Assembly (NCBI RefSeq): GCF_030817415.1
Contig: NZ_JAUSZI010000002.1
Coordinates: forward strand, 5,456,001-5,520,000
Reading direction: 5' to 3'
Length of the DNA stretch: 64,000 bases
Source of the DNA: Streptomyces umbrinus
GTDB lineage: Bacteria > Actinomycetota > Actinomycetes > Streptomycetales > Streptomycetaceae
The position numbers and the translations under genes are program-made. Position 1 is the first letter of the stretch. The number at the start of each line of letters is the position of its first letter. This document shows positions 1 through 14,201 of the stretch, one piece after another. The notes below the pieces were generated by a model. It ran no database searches, was not told where the DNA came from, and worked only from the letters and a program-made list of their open reading frames with translations.

Positions 1-1503
1 GCGGCCACCGCGGCCGTTGTCACCGTCCGCCGCGCCTCGGCGTGCGCCGCGACCTGCGGGACCCTCGGGTACGCCCGGGCCACCGGCGGCACCGGGACGG
101 TTCGGGGTGCCGAAGCCGGCCGCGGCACCATGTCTCCCCCGCGGCTGGCCGACTCGGGGCAACTGCTGCGTGGAGCCTCCGGCGTCGGCCCGGAAGAGGT
201 TGTCGAACTCGGCCGGCGGCTGCTGCCGGTCCTCGGGTACGCCCGGGCGCACCCCGTACTGCGCCGCGCCGGGCTGGGCCGGTACGGGCGCGATGAACTG
301 CGTGGGCTGGGCGTCGGGGTCGACGGCGGGCGGCAGGGGTCCGGCGCCGCTGCCTCCGGACACCGGTCCCGGCCCGTCCGGCCGGACCCGGCCGAGGTAC
401 CGCGTGGACTCGGAGGACATCGCCGTGGGTGCCGCCCCCGCGGGGGGCATCTCGGGCGGCAGCGCACCGGGACCCACCGGGGGAAGGAGCTGTGTGGCGC
501 CCTCGTCGACGGACGGCGCGGCGGGAACCGGCGGCAGGTACTGGGTCGCACCCTCGTCCATGGCGGCGACGGGCGGCAGCGCACCGGCACCCGCACCAAC
601 TGGCGGCAACGGCGCGGCAGTCTGACCACCGGCTGCGTACGGGCCGGGCGTCTGGCCACCGGGAGCCTGCGGGTAGCCGTAGCCACCCGGTGCCTGCGAC
701 CCGGCGGAACCGCCCTGCGGCTGCGGCTGGGGCGCCGCGTGGCCCGCGGGGGCCTGCGGGTAGCCGTAACCGCCCGGAGCCTGCGCCCCGGCAGGACCTT
801 GTGCGTGTGCTTGTCCCTGCGCATTCTCGGGTGCGTACGGGCCCGGAGTCTGCGGGGGGCCGTACCCGTTCATCGGTGCGCCCTCGTGCGGGAGAGGTGT
901 CCCGGCGCCCGAACCCTGCTGGGGCACGGAGCCCGCTCCGGGGTTCTGCGGCGGAAGCTGGCCGCCGGAGTTCGGCGCCTGCGGGCCGCCCCACGGGCCG
1001 CCCGCCGTGCCCTGCGCACCGTACTGGGCCGTCGGATCGGCGTACTGCGACGGCTGCCCGGCGTATCCGCCCTGCGCACCGGCACCGGCACCGGCACCGG
1101 AGCCCGGGGCCGACCCGTCCCAGCCCGGAGTCTGGGCTCCCGCGTCCGGAGCCTGGGCTGTCCAACTCGAGATCTGCGGGGGCGCGTCCTGGGCCGGGGC
1201 GCCCGGAGCCGGAGCGGCCCCGCCCTGGCCCGTGTGCTGCGTACCCCAGCCGGGGGCCTGCGCACCCTGGTCCTGGCCCGCATTACCCCATTCACCGGTC
1301 GGCGTCCAACCCTGCCCGGGCTCCGGAGAGGCCCCCGAAGCGGGTCCCGGACCCCACGGCTGGTCCCAGGCCTGACCGCCCGCCGGAACGGCGCGGTCGC
1401 CCGTCTGGCCCGGCAGGAGGGGTTCGCCGCCGTCGGACGGCAGCACGATGCCTTCGTGCGCGGGCCGCGCCGAGGGCTCGTCGCCCTGTCCGTTGTGCGT
1501 CAC
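1..1503 (-). CDS. Pro/Gln/Gly-rich protein, 3' end beyond the window
   Basis: A minus-strand frame stays open for 501 codons from a GTG at 1501-1503 to the left edge, so the C-terminus is outside the window. An AGGAG lies 5 nt before the GTG. The product is strongly biased to P, Q, G and A, with repeated GYGYPQAP-like units near residues 240-270 and two similar stretches (DEGATQYLPPV and DEGATQLLPPV). No folded domain is recognisable in the visible part, and it is probably largely disordered. Such N-terminal tails often precede a membrane or signalling domain in actinobacteria, but that part is not visible. Function unknown. Confidence 0.8.
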   Translation of the reverse strand, partial: MTHNGQGDEPSARPAHEGIVLPSDGGEPLLPGQTGDRAVPAGGQAWDQPWGPGPASGASPEPGQGWTPTGEWGNAGQDQGAQAPGWGTQHTGQGGAAPAPGAPAQDAPPQISSWTAQAPDAGAQTPGWDGSAPGSGAGAGAGAQGGYAGQPSQYADPTAQYGAQGTAGGPWGGPQAPNSGGQLPPQNPGAGSVPQQGSGAGTPLPHEGAPMNGYGPPQTPGPYAPENAQGQAHAQGPAGAQAPGGYGYPQAPAGHAAPQPQPQGGSAGSQAPGGYGYPQAPGGQTPGPYAAGGQTAAPLPPVGAGAGALPPVAAMDEGATQYLPPVPAAPSVDEGATQLLPPVGPGALPPEMPPAGAAPTAMSSESTRYLGRVRPDGPGPVSGGSGAGPLPPAVDPDAQPTQFIAPVPAQPGAAQYGVRPGVPEDRQQPPAEFDNLFRADAGGSTQQLPRVGQPRGRHGAAAGFGTPNRPGAAGGPGVPEGPAGRGARRGAADGDNGRGGR

Positions 1504-1542
1504 CGGGACTCCTACGAATGGGGGACCTTCGGAATCGTCGGT

Positions 1543-1644
1543 TCACGCTACCGGGTCCCCACAACCCGGTGCCACGCAGCACAGGTCGTGACGGCAGTCT
1601 CCGGGGGCGGCAGTAACGAATCCGCCCCCCAAGACGCTGTTCAT
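1543..1644 (-). CDS. possible 33-residue Cys-rich peptide
   Basis: ATG at 1642-1644 sits one base after a near-perfect AAAGGAGG. The frame reads 33 codons to TGA and contains four Cys in its second half. It ends 39 nt before the GTG of the Pro/Gln-rich gene on the same strand. An inverted repeat (ACCGGGT at 1550-1556 and ACCCGGT at 1564-1570) lies over its last codons. It may be a short translated leader or a small protein. Spurious translation cannot be excluded from one sequence. Confidence 0.4.
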   Translation of the reverse strand: MNSVLGGGFVTAAPGDCRHDLCCVAPGCGDPVA

Positions 1645-1717
1645 GCCTCCTTTCGCCTCAGGGCCCTCCGTTCACCCCGCGTTCACTCCCGCGTAGATCT
1701 CAGGTCTGTCCGGCGGA

Positions 1718-3103
1718 TCAGGCCGCCGCCTGCAGGTCCATGCGCGCCCCGAACTCCCGTACCACCGGCTCGTCCCGGTAGGGCTCCAGGCGCTGTTGGA
1801 AGTCGTCCAGGTACTCCGCCCCGCGGTTGGAGCGCAGCGTGCCGAGCAGTTCGACCGCGCGCAGACCGGTGTGACAGGCCTGCTCGACCTCACGCTGCTG
1901 GACCTGCGCGGTGGCCAGCAGTACGTAACCGATGGCGCGGCGCCTCGCACGCGTCTCGGGGTGCCCGGCGAGGGATTCCTGCGCGCACCGCGCGGCCGCC
2001 TCCGACTGCCCGAGGTCCCGGTGACAATGCGCCAACTCGTCGGCCAGATACGCCTCGTCGAAGTGCGCGATCCACCGCGGGTCGTCGCCGGAATCCGGAT
2101 CGGCCTGCTCCAGCGCCGCCACGGCCCGTCCGGACGCCGCCTGTGCCGAACGCGCGTCACCCATCAACGCGTGCCCCCGCGCCTCCGCGGCGTGGAACAT
2201 CGACTCCGCGCGCGGTGTGACCCGCCCGCGCGCCCCCTCCTGCGCCGCCCGCGCCAACTGGGCGATCTCCCGCGGATTGCCGAGCTGCGCCGCCAGGTGG
2301 CTCATGGACGCGGCGAGCACATACCCGCCGTACCCGCGGTCGCCCGCCGCCTGCGCGAGCCGCAGCGCCTGGATGTAGTACCGCTGCGCGAGCCCCGGCT
2401 GTCCGGTGTCGACCGCCATGTAGCCGGCCAGCTCCGTCAACCGCGCGACCGCCGCGAAGAGTTCACGCCCGACCGCTTCCCGGTACGAGCCCGCCAGCAG
2501 CCCGGAGACGACACTGTTCAGGTAGTGCACGACGACCGGGCGCACGTGCCCGCTGCCGTACTGGTGGTCCAGGTCGACCAGCGCCTGGGTCATCGCGCTC
2601 ACCGCCGCCACGTCGGACTGCCCGACCCGTGGCCCGGCCGCACGCGACACCTGCGCGTCCGGCGAGGAGATCAGCCAGTCCCGGCTCGGCTCGACGAGCG
2701 CGGAGGCCGCGACGGACGAGCCGGACAGGAAGTCCCGCCGCCCCACGTCGCTGCGCCACAGCTCGCAGACCTGCTCGATCGCCCCGAGGACGGTCGGCGA
2801 GAACTGCAGCCCCACGCCGGAGGCGAGGTTCTTGCCGTTCGCCATGCCAATCTCGTCGATCGTGACGGTCCGGCCCAGCTTGCGGCCGAGCGCCTCGGCG
2901 ATGATCGCGGGCGCCCGCCCGCGCGGCTGCTGTCCCCGCAGCCAGCGCGCCACGGACGTCTTGTCGTAGCGCAGATCGAGACCGTGCTCCGCGCCGCACA
3001 TGTTGACCCGGCGGGCCAGCCCGGCGTTGGAACAGCCCGCTTCCTGGATGAGCGCCTGCAGTCGTTCGTTCGGCTGCCGCGCGACGAGAGGCCTTGCGGC
3101 CAT
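1718..3103 (-). CDS. NsdA-like XRE/TPR transcriptional regulator
   Basis: 461 residues, ATG start with a GGGGG-type ribosome site. The N-terminal ~80 residues carry a divergent helix-turn-helix (NAGLARRVN followed by DKTSVARWLRG). Then comes a conserved RRDFLSGSSVAASAL segment near residue 120. The rest is alpha-helical with TPR-like repeats (GQPGLAQRYYIQALRLAQAAGD, GRAVAALEQAD). This architecture matches the Streptomyces family that includes NsdA, a negative regulator of development and antibiotic production. I think this is a paralogue rather than NsdA itself. It is divergent from the prim-pol gene and lies 214 bp upstream of the Pro/Gln-rich gene. Confidence 0.8.
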   Translation of the reverse strand: MAARPLVARQPNERLQALIQEAGCSNAGLARRVNMCGAEHGLDLRYDKTSVARWLRGQQPRGRAPAIIAEALGRKLGRTVTIDEIGMANGKNLASGVGLQFSPTVLGAIEQVCELWRSDVGRRDFLSGSSVAASALVEPSRDWLISSPDAQVSRAAGPRVGQSDVAAVSAMTQALVDLDHQYGSGHVRPVVVHYLNSVVSGLLAGSYREAVGRELFAAVARLTELAGYMAVDTGQPGLAQRYYIQALRLAQAAGDRGYGGYVLAASMSHLAAQLGNPREIAQLARAAQEGARGRVTPRAESMFHAAEARGHALMGDARSAQAASGRAVAALEQADPDSGDDPRWIAHFDEAYLADELAHCHRDLGQSEAAARCAQESLAGHPETRARRRAIGYVLLATAQVQQREVEQACHTGLRAVELLGTLRSNRGAEYLDDFQQRLEPYRDEPVVREFGARMDLQAAA

Positions 3104-3483
3104 TGGCGTACCCCCTGTGGCTGCGGTGCCTGCCCACGCACCGAGTTGACGGTCCTCAGTGACCGGGACCTCCCGCGCCCCTGCGGGGAGCGAAAAGATC
3201 CGGCCTCGAAGATCAATGCCCCGCGGACATACCGAAGATGCGAGACATGTGAGGATTGCCGGGGTAAAGGCTGCTGCCCGCCCCTCCGGTGGCTACCCAC
3301 CCCCCGCTGCCGCCTCCCATGCGCGCCCCCACAGATGCATCCATGCGCCCCACGTGTGGAATCGGTGCTCCTCCCCCGCGCGCGGGGGATAAAGAGGTGC
3401 AAGCCCGAAGGGTTTTCCCAAGAAGGGCGGTGGCGGGAGACGGGTGGGCGTAACCCCTGGTGGGTGCGGGAGTTGAGTTCAGC
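3104..3483. other. 380-bp divergent intergenic region
   Basis: Separates the TPR regulator (minus) from the prim-pol gene (plus). It contains a perfect 16-bp palindrome CCCCCGCGCGCGGGGG at 3373-3388 and no convincing short ORF. Promoters for both genes are expected here, but no clear consensus -10/-35 pair stands out. Confidence 0.5.
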
Positions 3484-11754: not shown

Positions 11755-12149
11755 CTGGCACCCCCTGCAGGCCGTGTCGGCGTGTCCTGCGCGGTGTGCC
11801 CGCGCGTCTGATCACTCACTTCACTCACTACGAATCACTCACTAGGAATCATTCAACTCGAACGTGACGCAGCCCACATCTGGTTCCCACAAGATTGAGG
11901 AAATCGTTGTGTGGGGCCCAGGCCTCCCAGGCTCGGAGGCCAGACATGGACGCAGCCACACCGGACACCGGGATCGCCGACGGGAACGTGCGGATCGGCG
12001 GAGTCCCAGGTCACAGCAGGCGCCGCCGGGTCGGCGTACGTAGCAGCAAGATCGGGTGCGCGTTCGAGGAATGGGATTGATTCGCACGAATGGGCGTTTT
12101 CGGAGGAGATCGGCTTCCTCGGGGCCCCTTGATCCCTAGCGTCGTCTGT
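11755..12149. other. 395-bp region upstream of the PAS/GAF gene and the IscB locus
   Basis: No supported ORF. It should contain the promoter of the minus-strand PAS/GAF gene and the unknown left boundary of the IscB element. TTGATC at 12130-12135 may be part of a plus-strand promoter. Confidence 0.4.
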
Positions 12150-12486
12150 AACACGCCGAAAGGAGGTCACTCGCTCCTCGGCCGCAAGCCGCAGCCTGTG
12201 CCTGTCACGGACGGGTCGAGTGACCAGCCCCAGTCATCACGATCCGAAGATCAGGGAGGTGCCCTCGATGACTACGTTTCCTGCAGGCGAGCAGACCCAC
12301 CAGGCTGTGCTTCCTCAGCAGCCTGCTCTGGAATCCGTGGGAGCAGACACCCCTGGGAGCAGGGACGAAACGGCTCACGGACACCCCGCCACCGCGCGGG
12401 GCACCGGCAGGGAACATGGGCGAGGGGAGACCGACGGGCGTGGCACCGGACCCCGTCGGCGTCACGCCGAAACCAGCGCTTCGGCG
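12150..12486 (+). ncRNA. probable omega-RNA of the IscB locus
   Basis: The stretch just upstream of iscB folds into a series of strong stems. GGTCACTCG (12165-12173) pairs with CGAGTGACC (12217-12225), enclosing two hairpins (CGGC/GCCG and CCTGTC/GACGGG). Further stems are CCCCGC/GCGGGG (12384-12401), CCGACGGG/CCCGTCGG (12431-12459) and CGCCGAA/TTCGGCG (12465-12486). In known IscB systems the guide RNA (omega-RNA) is encoded directly upstream, with the guide at its 5' end. Ends are approximate. The guide would come from sequence just left of about 12150. Confidence 0.6.
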
Positions 12487-13927
12487 ATGGAGACGGCAGA
12501 GAACGGGAGCGGTGACGTTCCCGCGCAGGGCCATACGTACGCCGGTGGCATCGGCGCGAGCAGGGTCTTCGTCCTCTCCAAGGACGGCCGACCCCTCATG
12601 CCCTGCCATCCCGCCCGCGCACGCGAACTCCTCGGCAAAGGGCGGGCCGTGGTCGCCCGGCAGGTTCCCTTCACCATCCGGTTGAAGGACCGCACCCTCG
12701 CCGAGTCAGAGGTCGACGGCGTGCAGTTACGCATCGACCCCGGCTCCAAGGGCACGGGTCTCGCCCTCACCGACGAGAAGAAGGAAGCCGACGAGCAGGG
12801 CGCCACTGTCACCGTCCGGCGCGGACTGATCTCAGTCGAACTCCAGCACCGGGGCGATCAGATCCGCATGTGCATGCAACAGCGCGCCGGTTATCGCCAC
12901 AGGCGCCGATCAGTCAACTGCCGCTACCGAGTACCCCGCTCGAACAACCGCACCCGCCCCGGAGGATGGCTGCCGCCCTCACTGCGCCACCGCGTCGACA
13001 CCACCGTCTCCCTGGCCAGGCGCATGTGCCGATACGCACCCGTCACCGAGATCCACATGGAACGCGTCGCCTTCGACACCCACGCCATGAGCGCAGGCAG
13101 GCCCCTCACCAGAGCCGAGCAGCAACAGGGCACGCTCGCCGGAACCGAAATCCGCTCCTACCTCCTCACCAAGTGGAACCGCGCCTGCGCCTACTGCGAC
13201 GCCACCTGCGTACCTCTGAACATCGACCATCTCCGGCCCCGGAGCCGCGGAGGCTCGGACCGTGTCTCGAACCTTGTCCTCGCCTGCGTTCCCTGCAACC
13301 AGGCCAAAGGCAGCACGCCCGTCGAAATCTTTCTGGCTCACCGACCCGACCGCCTCGCGAAGATCCTCCGCCAGGTCAGGACACCGCTCCATGACGCCGC
13401 CGCCATGAACGCCACCCGATGGCGGCTCACAGAGGCTTTGGAAACCCTCGGGAGACCGGTCCACGCCTGGTCGGGCGGCCGTACCAAGTGGAACCCGCAC
13501 CGCCATGGGACTGGGCAAGACCCACACTTTGGACGCCCTGTCCGTCGGACGTCTGGATCACGAGAGCGGCGACGCGATCGTCCGACTGCCGGTGCAGGTC
13601 CTCATCGTCAAGGCCACTGGACGCGGCTCGTACGCCCGCACCACACCGGACCGGTTCGGGTTCCCTCGCCTTCGGCGGGCCCGGACAAAGCAGCACTTCG
13701 GGTACGTCACCGGGGATCTCGTACGAGCCGTCGTGCCGATCGGCAAATGGGCGGGCACATGGACAGGGCGTATCTCAGTGCGGGCCATGGGACAGCACAG
13801 CCTCACCACACCTGCAGGCCGCTTCAACGTCCGTTACCGGAACCTCCGGCTTGTGCAGCGGGGCGATGGCTACGGGTACGCCGCCAGGCAAGAGCCAGTG
13901 GAGTCGACGTCTCGAAAAACCGGTTGA
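12487..13927 (+). pseudogene. iscB: IscB RNA-guided nuclease, frameshifted
   Basis: Start ATG 12487; the open frame further upstream is probably RNA, not protein. PLMP domain: RPLMP at residues 35-39. RuvC-I LRIDPGSKGTGLAL (Asp84), Arg-rich bridge helix ~122-150, RuvC-II EIHMERVAFD (Glu192), then an HNH domain with CAYC (234-237), NIDHLRPRSRGG (Asp247, His248) and CVPCNQAKG. After KWNPHR the frame shifts. RuvC-III (GKTHTLDALSVG) and the C-terminal target-interaction domain (to 13927) follow in the +2 frame from 13505. One extra C in 13501-13504 explains this. Without it the protein would be ~479 residues, normal for IscB. No TnpA transposase is nearby. Confidence 0.85.
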
Positions 13928-14201
13928 GCGACGTCCGAACGGTTCTTAGGGTGTGGGGACACGAGAAGGGAGGTGGTTTGGCAGATGTATGCAAACCGGA
14001 CGCGTGAGGTGGCTGCGGGCTAGCGGCCCGTCACCACATTCAGTGCGGTGCCGGACCAGCGCGTGAGACGAGCGTGCAGCCGGCCCAATCTCAAGCAGTC
14101 ACCCGACCCGCGAGCTCGCCGGTAAGTCCGGCCGGCTCCCTCCTCGGAGGGGACCAGAGTTCGCGGGTCGTCTGCGTTTCGCAGGTGTGTGAGGCGCGGC
14201 A
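13928..14201. other. structured intergenic DNA at the right side of the IscB locus
   Basis: No credible ORF. A hairpin GGTTTG (13975-13980) / CAAACC (13992-13997), 50 bp after the iscB stop, is of the kind found at right ends of IS200/IS605-type elements. A larger branched structure follows at 14105-14184 (listed separately). Confidence 0.45.
14105..14184. other. branched inverted-repeat structure, possible structured RNA
   Basis: A 13-bp stem (14105-14117 with 14157-14169, one G-U in RNA) encloses two hairpins: GCCGG/CCGGC (14118-14132) and CCCTC/GAGGG (14138-14151). A third hairpin CTGCG/CGCAG (14172-14184) follows. It fits no tRNA. It could be an element end, a terminator, or an unknown RNA on either strand. 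Confidence 0.45.

Follow-up and report, generated by a model that had tools for sequence, protein, structure and literature searches.

In the 64,000-nucleotide (nt) window of Streptomyces umbrinus DNA analyzed here (contig NZ_JAUSZI010000002.1, positions 5,456,001 to 5,520,000, from a genome of 12.4 Mb in three contigs), a gene for the RNA-guided nuclease IscB and its omega-RNA lie directly upstream of the gene for the small RNA (sRNA) Ms_IGR-5. We propose that this locus is probably a degenerate IscB/omega-RNA homing cassette, an instance of RNA-guided intronless homing (Table 1; positions count from the first letter of the window). As judged by comparison with related loci, the site is fixed, the guides correspond to sRNA leader alleles of other strains, the carrier's own allele is avoided, intact copies are under purifying selection and others decay. 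From these patterns we infer the start of transcription, the target motif, cutting and repair by homing. The preliminary description of this DNA had recognized IscB, the omega-RNA and the frameshift, which all stand, and had overlooked the setting, namely a fixed sRNA site, a guide resembling foreign alleles and avoidance of the own allele.

A fixed site upstream of Ms_IGR-5

A relative of the IscB element is present in 33 of 295 congeneric genomes, and its closest relatives with a named host are from Streptomyces. Among 29 relatives (L003-L031) searched with Rfam, Ms_IGR-5 immediately follows the element, in the same orientation, in each of the 18 closest; in the 11 remaining ones it was not found downstream at E 0.01. 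Relatives from the 295 genomes and the best 80 of 190 further loci, searched with our own profiles and freed of 14 loci that duplicated others already in the set, yielded 49 distinct sites (window included) that combine iscB/omega-RNA with the sRNA. The two share a strand in 49 of 49, and no more than 40 nt separate the end of iscB from the sRNA start in any of them, with an overlap by estimate in L122. On this comparison, IscB occupies a fixed site upstream of Ms_IGR-5 in one Streptomyces clade. In the window the iscB stop codon falls within the putative -35 box of the promoter for this sRNA.

Ms_IGR-5 is described as transcribed in S. lividans and S. avermitilis and its homologues as ribosome-protected in mycobacteria (PMC8079986, PMC8780764, PMC4974804; the ribosome protection in PMC4974804). 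Within positions 13973-14023 the sRNA holds a short reading frame (MYANRTREVAAG; ATG 13985, stop TAG 14021-14023), which follows a strong Shine-Dalgarno core and is similar in element-free relatives.

Table 1. Features of the IscB/Ms_IGR-5 locus, in window positions
Feature	Position	Strand	Remarks
Putative -10 box TAGCGT of the omega-RNA promoter	12137..12142	+	From sequence; many carriers have a comparable box in this position
Putative guide AACACGCCGAAAGGAG	12150..12165	+	Last 13 nt equal the Ms_IGR-5 leader of element-free G109 and G032
omega-RNA scaffold (Rfam HEARO, RF02033)	12166..12435	+	First four bases GTCA; no GTGR behind the guide DNA
iscB, first part	12268..13504	+	From the conserved ATG within the omega-RNA: N-terminal extension, PLMP, RuvC-I, RuvC-II, HNH
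Frameshift stretch	13495..13504	+	10 nt in the window, 9 nt in 44 of 49 copies
iscB, second part	13505..13927	+	Other frame; RuvC-III (KTHTLDA), C-terminal domain; stop TGA 13925-13927
Putative Ms_IGR-5 promoter	13924..13952	+	TTGAGC 13924-13929, 17 nt, TAGGGT 13947-13952; same layout in element-free sites
Own sRNA leader GGACACGAGAAGGGAG	13957..13972	+	Differs from the guide at 6 of 13 nt
sRNA Ms_IGR-5 (RF02471)	13959..14176	+	95.3 bits; 31 nt past the iscB stop
GTGG, putative target-adjacent motif behind the leader	13973..13976	+	

Guides correspond to leader alleles of other strains

The 16 nt before the omega-RNA scaffold vary among carriers, yet they resemble the 5' leader of Ms_IGR-5. 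We compared 45 guides (the 49 occupied sites minus L020, L122, L139 and L140, where the omega-RNA start is incomplete) with 130 element-free leaders (140 fetched regions minus L306-L311, picked for the commonest leader, and minus L292, L301, L304 and L305, which hold an element or remnant). Over 13 nt, 23 of the 45 guides equal an element-free leader, compared to 1.65 for column-shuffled guides (2000 shuffles), and 37 are at most one mismatch away from one, compared to 13.7 (300 shuffles). Element-free alleles holding the predicted target of these 23 guides thus exist among the 130 genomes. Thirteen nt is a reasonable comparison length, because another IscB is reported to have an effective guide of 13-15 nt (PMC13180657). 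The two leaders found most often in element-free genomes (48 and 11 of 130) are likewise the two most frequent guides (7 and 4 of 45). By an unranked count, the commonest leader followed by GTGGTT occurs in 98 of the 295 genomes, in 1 of 21 carriers or remnants at the site (21 being a hand tally) vs. 97 of 274 others (P 0.003).

GTGG or GTGA stands behind all 130 element-free leaders, and on sequence grounds we infer GTGR as the putative target-adjacent motif. The third base of the scaffold is C in 45 of 45 carriers; because it is C and not G, the DNA of the guide itself has no GTGR motif. HEARO elements prefer ATGA or GTGA, and the distant clades treated below support RTGR as the motif. A search of the own genome for a second target gave none within three mismatches from guide plus NTGR, the guide itself excepted. 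Pairing of the guide with the sRNA transcript is ruled out by reasoning, since both have the same sense.

Carriers avoid their own leader

The own downstream leader differs from the guide at at least 2 of 13 nt in every one of the 45 carriers. With the element-free pool as reference, 6.8 own leaders would be expected within one mismatch from the guide and 10.4 within two; we observe 0 of 45 (P 2.6e-4) and 1 of 45 (P 3.6e-5), respectively. When the data are reduced to 43 distinct pairs, P is 7e-4 (one mismatch) and 1e-4 (two), and with 30 distinct guides 0.015 and 0.0065. Exact matches are also avoided when all 45 carriers are counted (P 0.023). In the remnants L292 and L301 the guide likewise differs from the own leader.

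The nearest element-free genomes by left flank, G109 and G032, both hold the guide allele of the window, which is found in 4 of 130 overall (P 7e-4). Compared with these two genomes, the window is 41-47% identical in the leader, 69% in the following stretch and 96-97% in the sRNA body, whereas G109 and G032 share 94, 100, and 96% with each other. The leader region of the window therefore looks like a replaced tract, which is only suggestive of gene conversion. For carrier G026, three of the seven nearest genomes carry its guide allele (P 9e-4). In the cluster around G251, the commonest leader is present in 4 of the 5 nearest element-free genomes and in 0 of 5 carriers; the guide of G049 is identical to this leader along all 16 nt, and the guides of three further carriers deviate from it by at most one base in 13.

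We envisage homing as follows. The omega-RNA of an intact copy would begin with a guide that is equal or close to the sRNA-leader allele of other strains. IscB would cut the matching allele at the border of leader and GTGR in an element-free chromosome that is met, e.g., by conjugation. Repair from the carrier chromosome would then transfer the cassette along with the mismatched, presumably resistant leader that the carrier itself has. The guide's own DNA would escape cutting by the C, instead of G, at the third base of the motif.

A nuclease under selection and its broken copy in the window

The first iscB part matches the NCBIfam model guided_IscB (NF040563) with 389 bits, above the cut-off of 175, and both Pfam RRXRR and HNH match the window IscB. 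As the preliminary description had it, PLMP, RuvC-I, RuvC-II and HNH share a frame that is open to 13504, and a different frame, from 13505, encodes RuvC-III and the C-terminal part. The first frame runs on past 13504 out of register and stays open until 14007. PLMP, RuvC-I to -III and HNH are consequently not in a single reading frame, the split lying at 13495-13504. A comparison of relatives, which had been advised for the extra base, gave a spacing between the two parts of 9 nt in 44 of the 49 same-site copies, 10 in the window only and 8 in L020, the stretch being deleted in L127, L139 and L140. The excess of one base is thus real to the window copy as read and unique to it; its assignment to a C at 13501-13504 was too precise, since no placement finer than 13495-13504 is possible. 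This distribution, with 9 nt as the rule in 44 of 49 copies and 10 nt confined to the window, rules out a programmed frameshift. In its present reading the window copy cannot yield a full nuclease, although its guide and scaffold are still intact. The frameshift may also be a sequencing error. The locus had been called either recently lost or still partly used. The former agrees with the uniqueness of the excess base and with the broken state of 13 of the 49 copies; the latter finds no sequence support, because the open frame is without RuvC-III and the C-terminal domain.

Besides these 13 broken copies, the window's among them, 36 are intact. None of these 36 deviates at the RuvC-I D, the RuvC-II E, the zinc cysteines of HNH or the RuvC-III H and D (a count without the HNH histidine), and the median ratio of nonsynonymous to synonymous substitution rates (dN/dS) is 0.22 over 250 random pairs. 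By these measures the intact copies are under purifying selection and the others are decaying. Homing genes are known for a life cycle of gain, decay and loss. In 30 carriers, iscB has diverged by a median of 0.27 at the protein level and citrate synthase by 0.05, with moderate congruence between the two (Mantel rho 0.50). Plain descent with the host was considered and rejected, as this rho is neither purely vertical nor free. No transposase was detected by Pfam among seven neighboring proteins tested (8.4-18.3 kb), in agreement with the earlier claim that none lies beside the locus, and the TnpA of an IS200/IS605 transposon was likewise not found among them.

The omega-RNA and the iscB start codon

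A covariance search, as suggested earlier, matches the window to the HEARO model with 64.6 bits (E 3.5e-12), under Rfam's curated score of 83; all 28 HEARO matches in the relatives searched are likewise under 83. In 31 aligned omega-RNAs, 26 of 59 predicted pairs show a pair-keeping change on both sides. Judging from match and covariation, the omega-RNA of the window locus is real. The chain of stems formerly drawn over 12165-12486 is thereby upheld in kind, though the match ends at 12435 and not at 12486, and the guide, previously expected left of ~12150, is placed at 12150-12165 instead. The box at 12137-12142 would direct transcription from about position 12150.

The omega-RNA includes the iscB start codon (shared stretch 12268-12435). 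A conserved ATG behind GGGAGGTG is found in 42 of 45 carriers, and the frame from this ATG is open to PLMP in 40 of 45; the 3' part of the omega-RNA is therefore also coding. The start codon is paired in the predicted omega-RNA fold, so that RNA folding and translation could be coupled. In L118 (the L013 locus; 702-3421) the omega-RNA is split into a first part at 702-827 and a remainder from 3299, and in L013 Rfam places the end of a group II intron directly before the second part. A match to Scr2736 RNA at 13472-13549 (22.8 bits vs. a curated 43) was taken as chance.

Distant IscB clades at other sites

The comparison extended to three distant IscB clades. In clade A (L129, L134, L327) the site is the ribosome-binding site before ATGA, with AGGG directly followed by ATGACG in 27 of 30 loci; the exact L129 guide occurs in 1 of 30. 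A conserved gene has the clade A element at its start codon and receives a replacement ribosome-binding site from the right end of the element. In clade B (L133, L136, L137) the guide CGGCTCTAGGGGATCG, followed by ATGA, is present in 20 of 30 element-free loci fetched. By their sequences, clades A and B look like classic interrupted targets.

Clade C (L322, L324, L141) lies ~300 nt upstream of a gene starting GTGAATATCC. Its site, CGAAGGACCTGAA followed by GTGA, is found in 14 of 30 element-free loci. The L324 guide ends in CGAAGGACCTGAA and the L322 guide is one base off; the guide of L141 is identical, along 16 nt, to the sites that L322 and L324 themselves carry. In this clade the own sites are lengthened, to CGAAGGACCTTTGAA before GTGA in L322 and L324 and to CGAAGGACTTCTTGAA before GTGA in L141. 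Clade C would thus be an independent replicate of the pattern at another gene and in another IscB clade, with three members only.

Genome G256 has six copies (L312-L317) of a distant IscB that is 59-62% identical to the first part of the window's, which suggests that this type is still mobile. Spread by plasmids was considered and rejected: the best match among 82 plasmid records with a relative is 61% identical, and the window clade was not seen in that collection.

Alternative explanations

Several observations weigh against homing with allele-specific guides. Only 4 of 45 guides are identical to an element-free leader when all 16 nt are compared, and five of the 45 (L016, L105, L110, L116, L157) fit no leader within two mismatches. 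The comparison length of 13 nt was our own choice, and the 130 leaders were drawn from the top of a ranking by likeness to the window, which biases them to the window's leader type. The evidence for avoidance weakens to P 0.12 (one mismatch) and 0.034 (two) against 42 distinct alleles. For exact matches it loses significance, with P 0.057 for distinct pairs, 0.49 for distinct guides and 0.6 for distinct alleles. A shuffle among carriers yields P 0.44 for exact matches, 0.055 for one mismatch and 0.020 for two. On these sequence data, avoidance is constant in direction and varies in strength with the control; moreover, the tests are not fully independent because the carriers are kin. G026 was picked for its test in the knowledge that its guide allele was in the pool, and the prediction for G251, which was set beforehand, failed, as 0 of its 5 nearest element-free relatives carry its guide allele. 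Finally, a rho of 0.50 neither proves nor excludes transfer.

Of the competing explanations, an ordinary transposon relic survives best, though we consider it unlikely. The locus would then be a classic IscB whose guide records the left flank and serves retention of the element after excision. Clades A and B fit this explanation, given that the left half of their element-free site is identical or similar to the guide and has ATGA on its right, and so do the multiple copies of IscB relatives in G256. In the window clade, however, a full leader with GTGR persists on the right side of iscB, the element combines a conserved upstream promoter region with a variable guide, and no transposase was found near the locus (in the seven proteins mentioned). 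A simple record of the flank would also not predict avoidance of the own leader.

Quite unlikely, in our view, is a domesticated regulator, in which IscB binds its own leader by a partial match beside GTGR and represses without cutting. Its conserved position at the sRNA promoter would suit such a role, and own leaders do keep GTGR and share a mean of 4.7 nt with the guide next to it. Random pairings, however, share a stretch that is no shorter (5.0), guides fit the alleles of other strains better, and the invariant RuvC residues of the intact copies are unlike a dead regulator. Distinctly improbable is allelic exclusion or defence, by which the nuclease would destroy incoming chromosomes or plasmids with foreign leaders and gain nothing by copying. 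It draws on the same targeting data as homing, but a nuclease aimed at one locus of a universal sRNA makes a poor defence, and the replaced leader tract seen between the window and G109/G032 fits copying. That the guide-like stretch is a coincidence or fossil, being just a Shine-Dalgarno leader that follows a promoter, or else a neutral remnant from the 5' end of the sRNA, is highly improbable: guide and leader do share a GGAG core behind a -10-like box and few guides match over 16 nt, but the exact 13-nt matches far exceed column-shuffled controls that retain this core, other clades carry the start site of their own neighbor gene, and a relic of the own gene should fit the own leader best.

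Relation to known systems and significance

Homing guided by an omega-RNA would share with the known IscB/HEARO systems (OMEGA; NF040563, RF02033) the protein family, the omega-RNA fold, the 5' guide and an RTGR-like motif behind the target, in line with the ATGA/GTGA preference of HEARO. It differs in the fixed chromosomal site beside an sRNA gene, in having no transposase near, and in a guide that resembles the neighbor's alleles in other strains, with the own site kept and mismatched; in the window, the gene is in addition frameshifted. Intronless homing by SegF and SegG of phage T4 has a nuclease gene that is near but separate from the cut site, gene-less relatives that carry the cuttable allele, and co-conversion of the flanks, which would be the expected outcome here as well (PMC2988022). 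In contrast to T4, an RNA guide would define the target, the elements reside in bacterial chromosomes and the activity is putative. The closest RNA-guided precedent is TnpB, reported to work as a gene drive for insertion sequences on plasmids, where an RNA-guided nuclease similarly acts on copies without the element; there, the element has TnpA, the guide equals the insertion flank and insertion interrupts the target (PMC11870625). Our literature searches, which covered titles and the openings of abstracts, returned no description of the pattern reported here.

Beyond the window, we lean slightly towards the view that Streptomyces chromosomes host allele-recognizing, RNA-guided homing, in which guides shift among leader alleles of an sRNA or of other gene starts and carriers keep a resistant leader. 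This would amount to a programmable gene drive with an arms race at the Shine-Dalgarno or start-codon site and cycles of gain, decay and loss. As to what stand-alone IscB genes without a transposase do, homing with allele-specific guides is an answer that can be tested directly, and the pattern supplies dozens of natural systems with targets and a putative motif. If true, it would reveal a natural gene drive between bacterial chromosomes and give a reason why a conserved sRNA carries variable 5' leaders.
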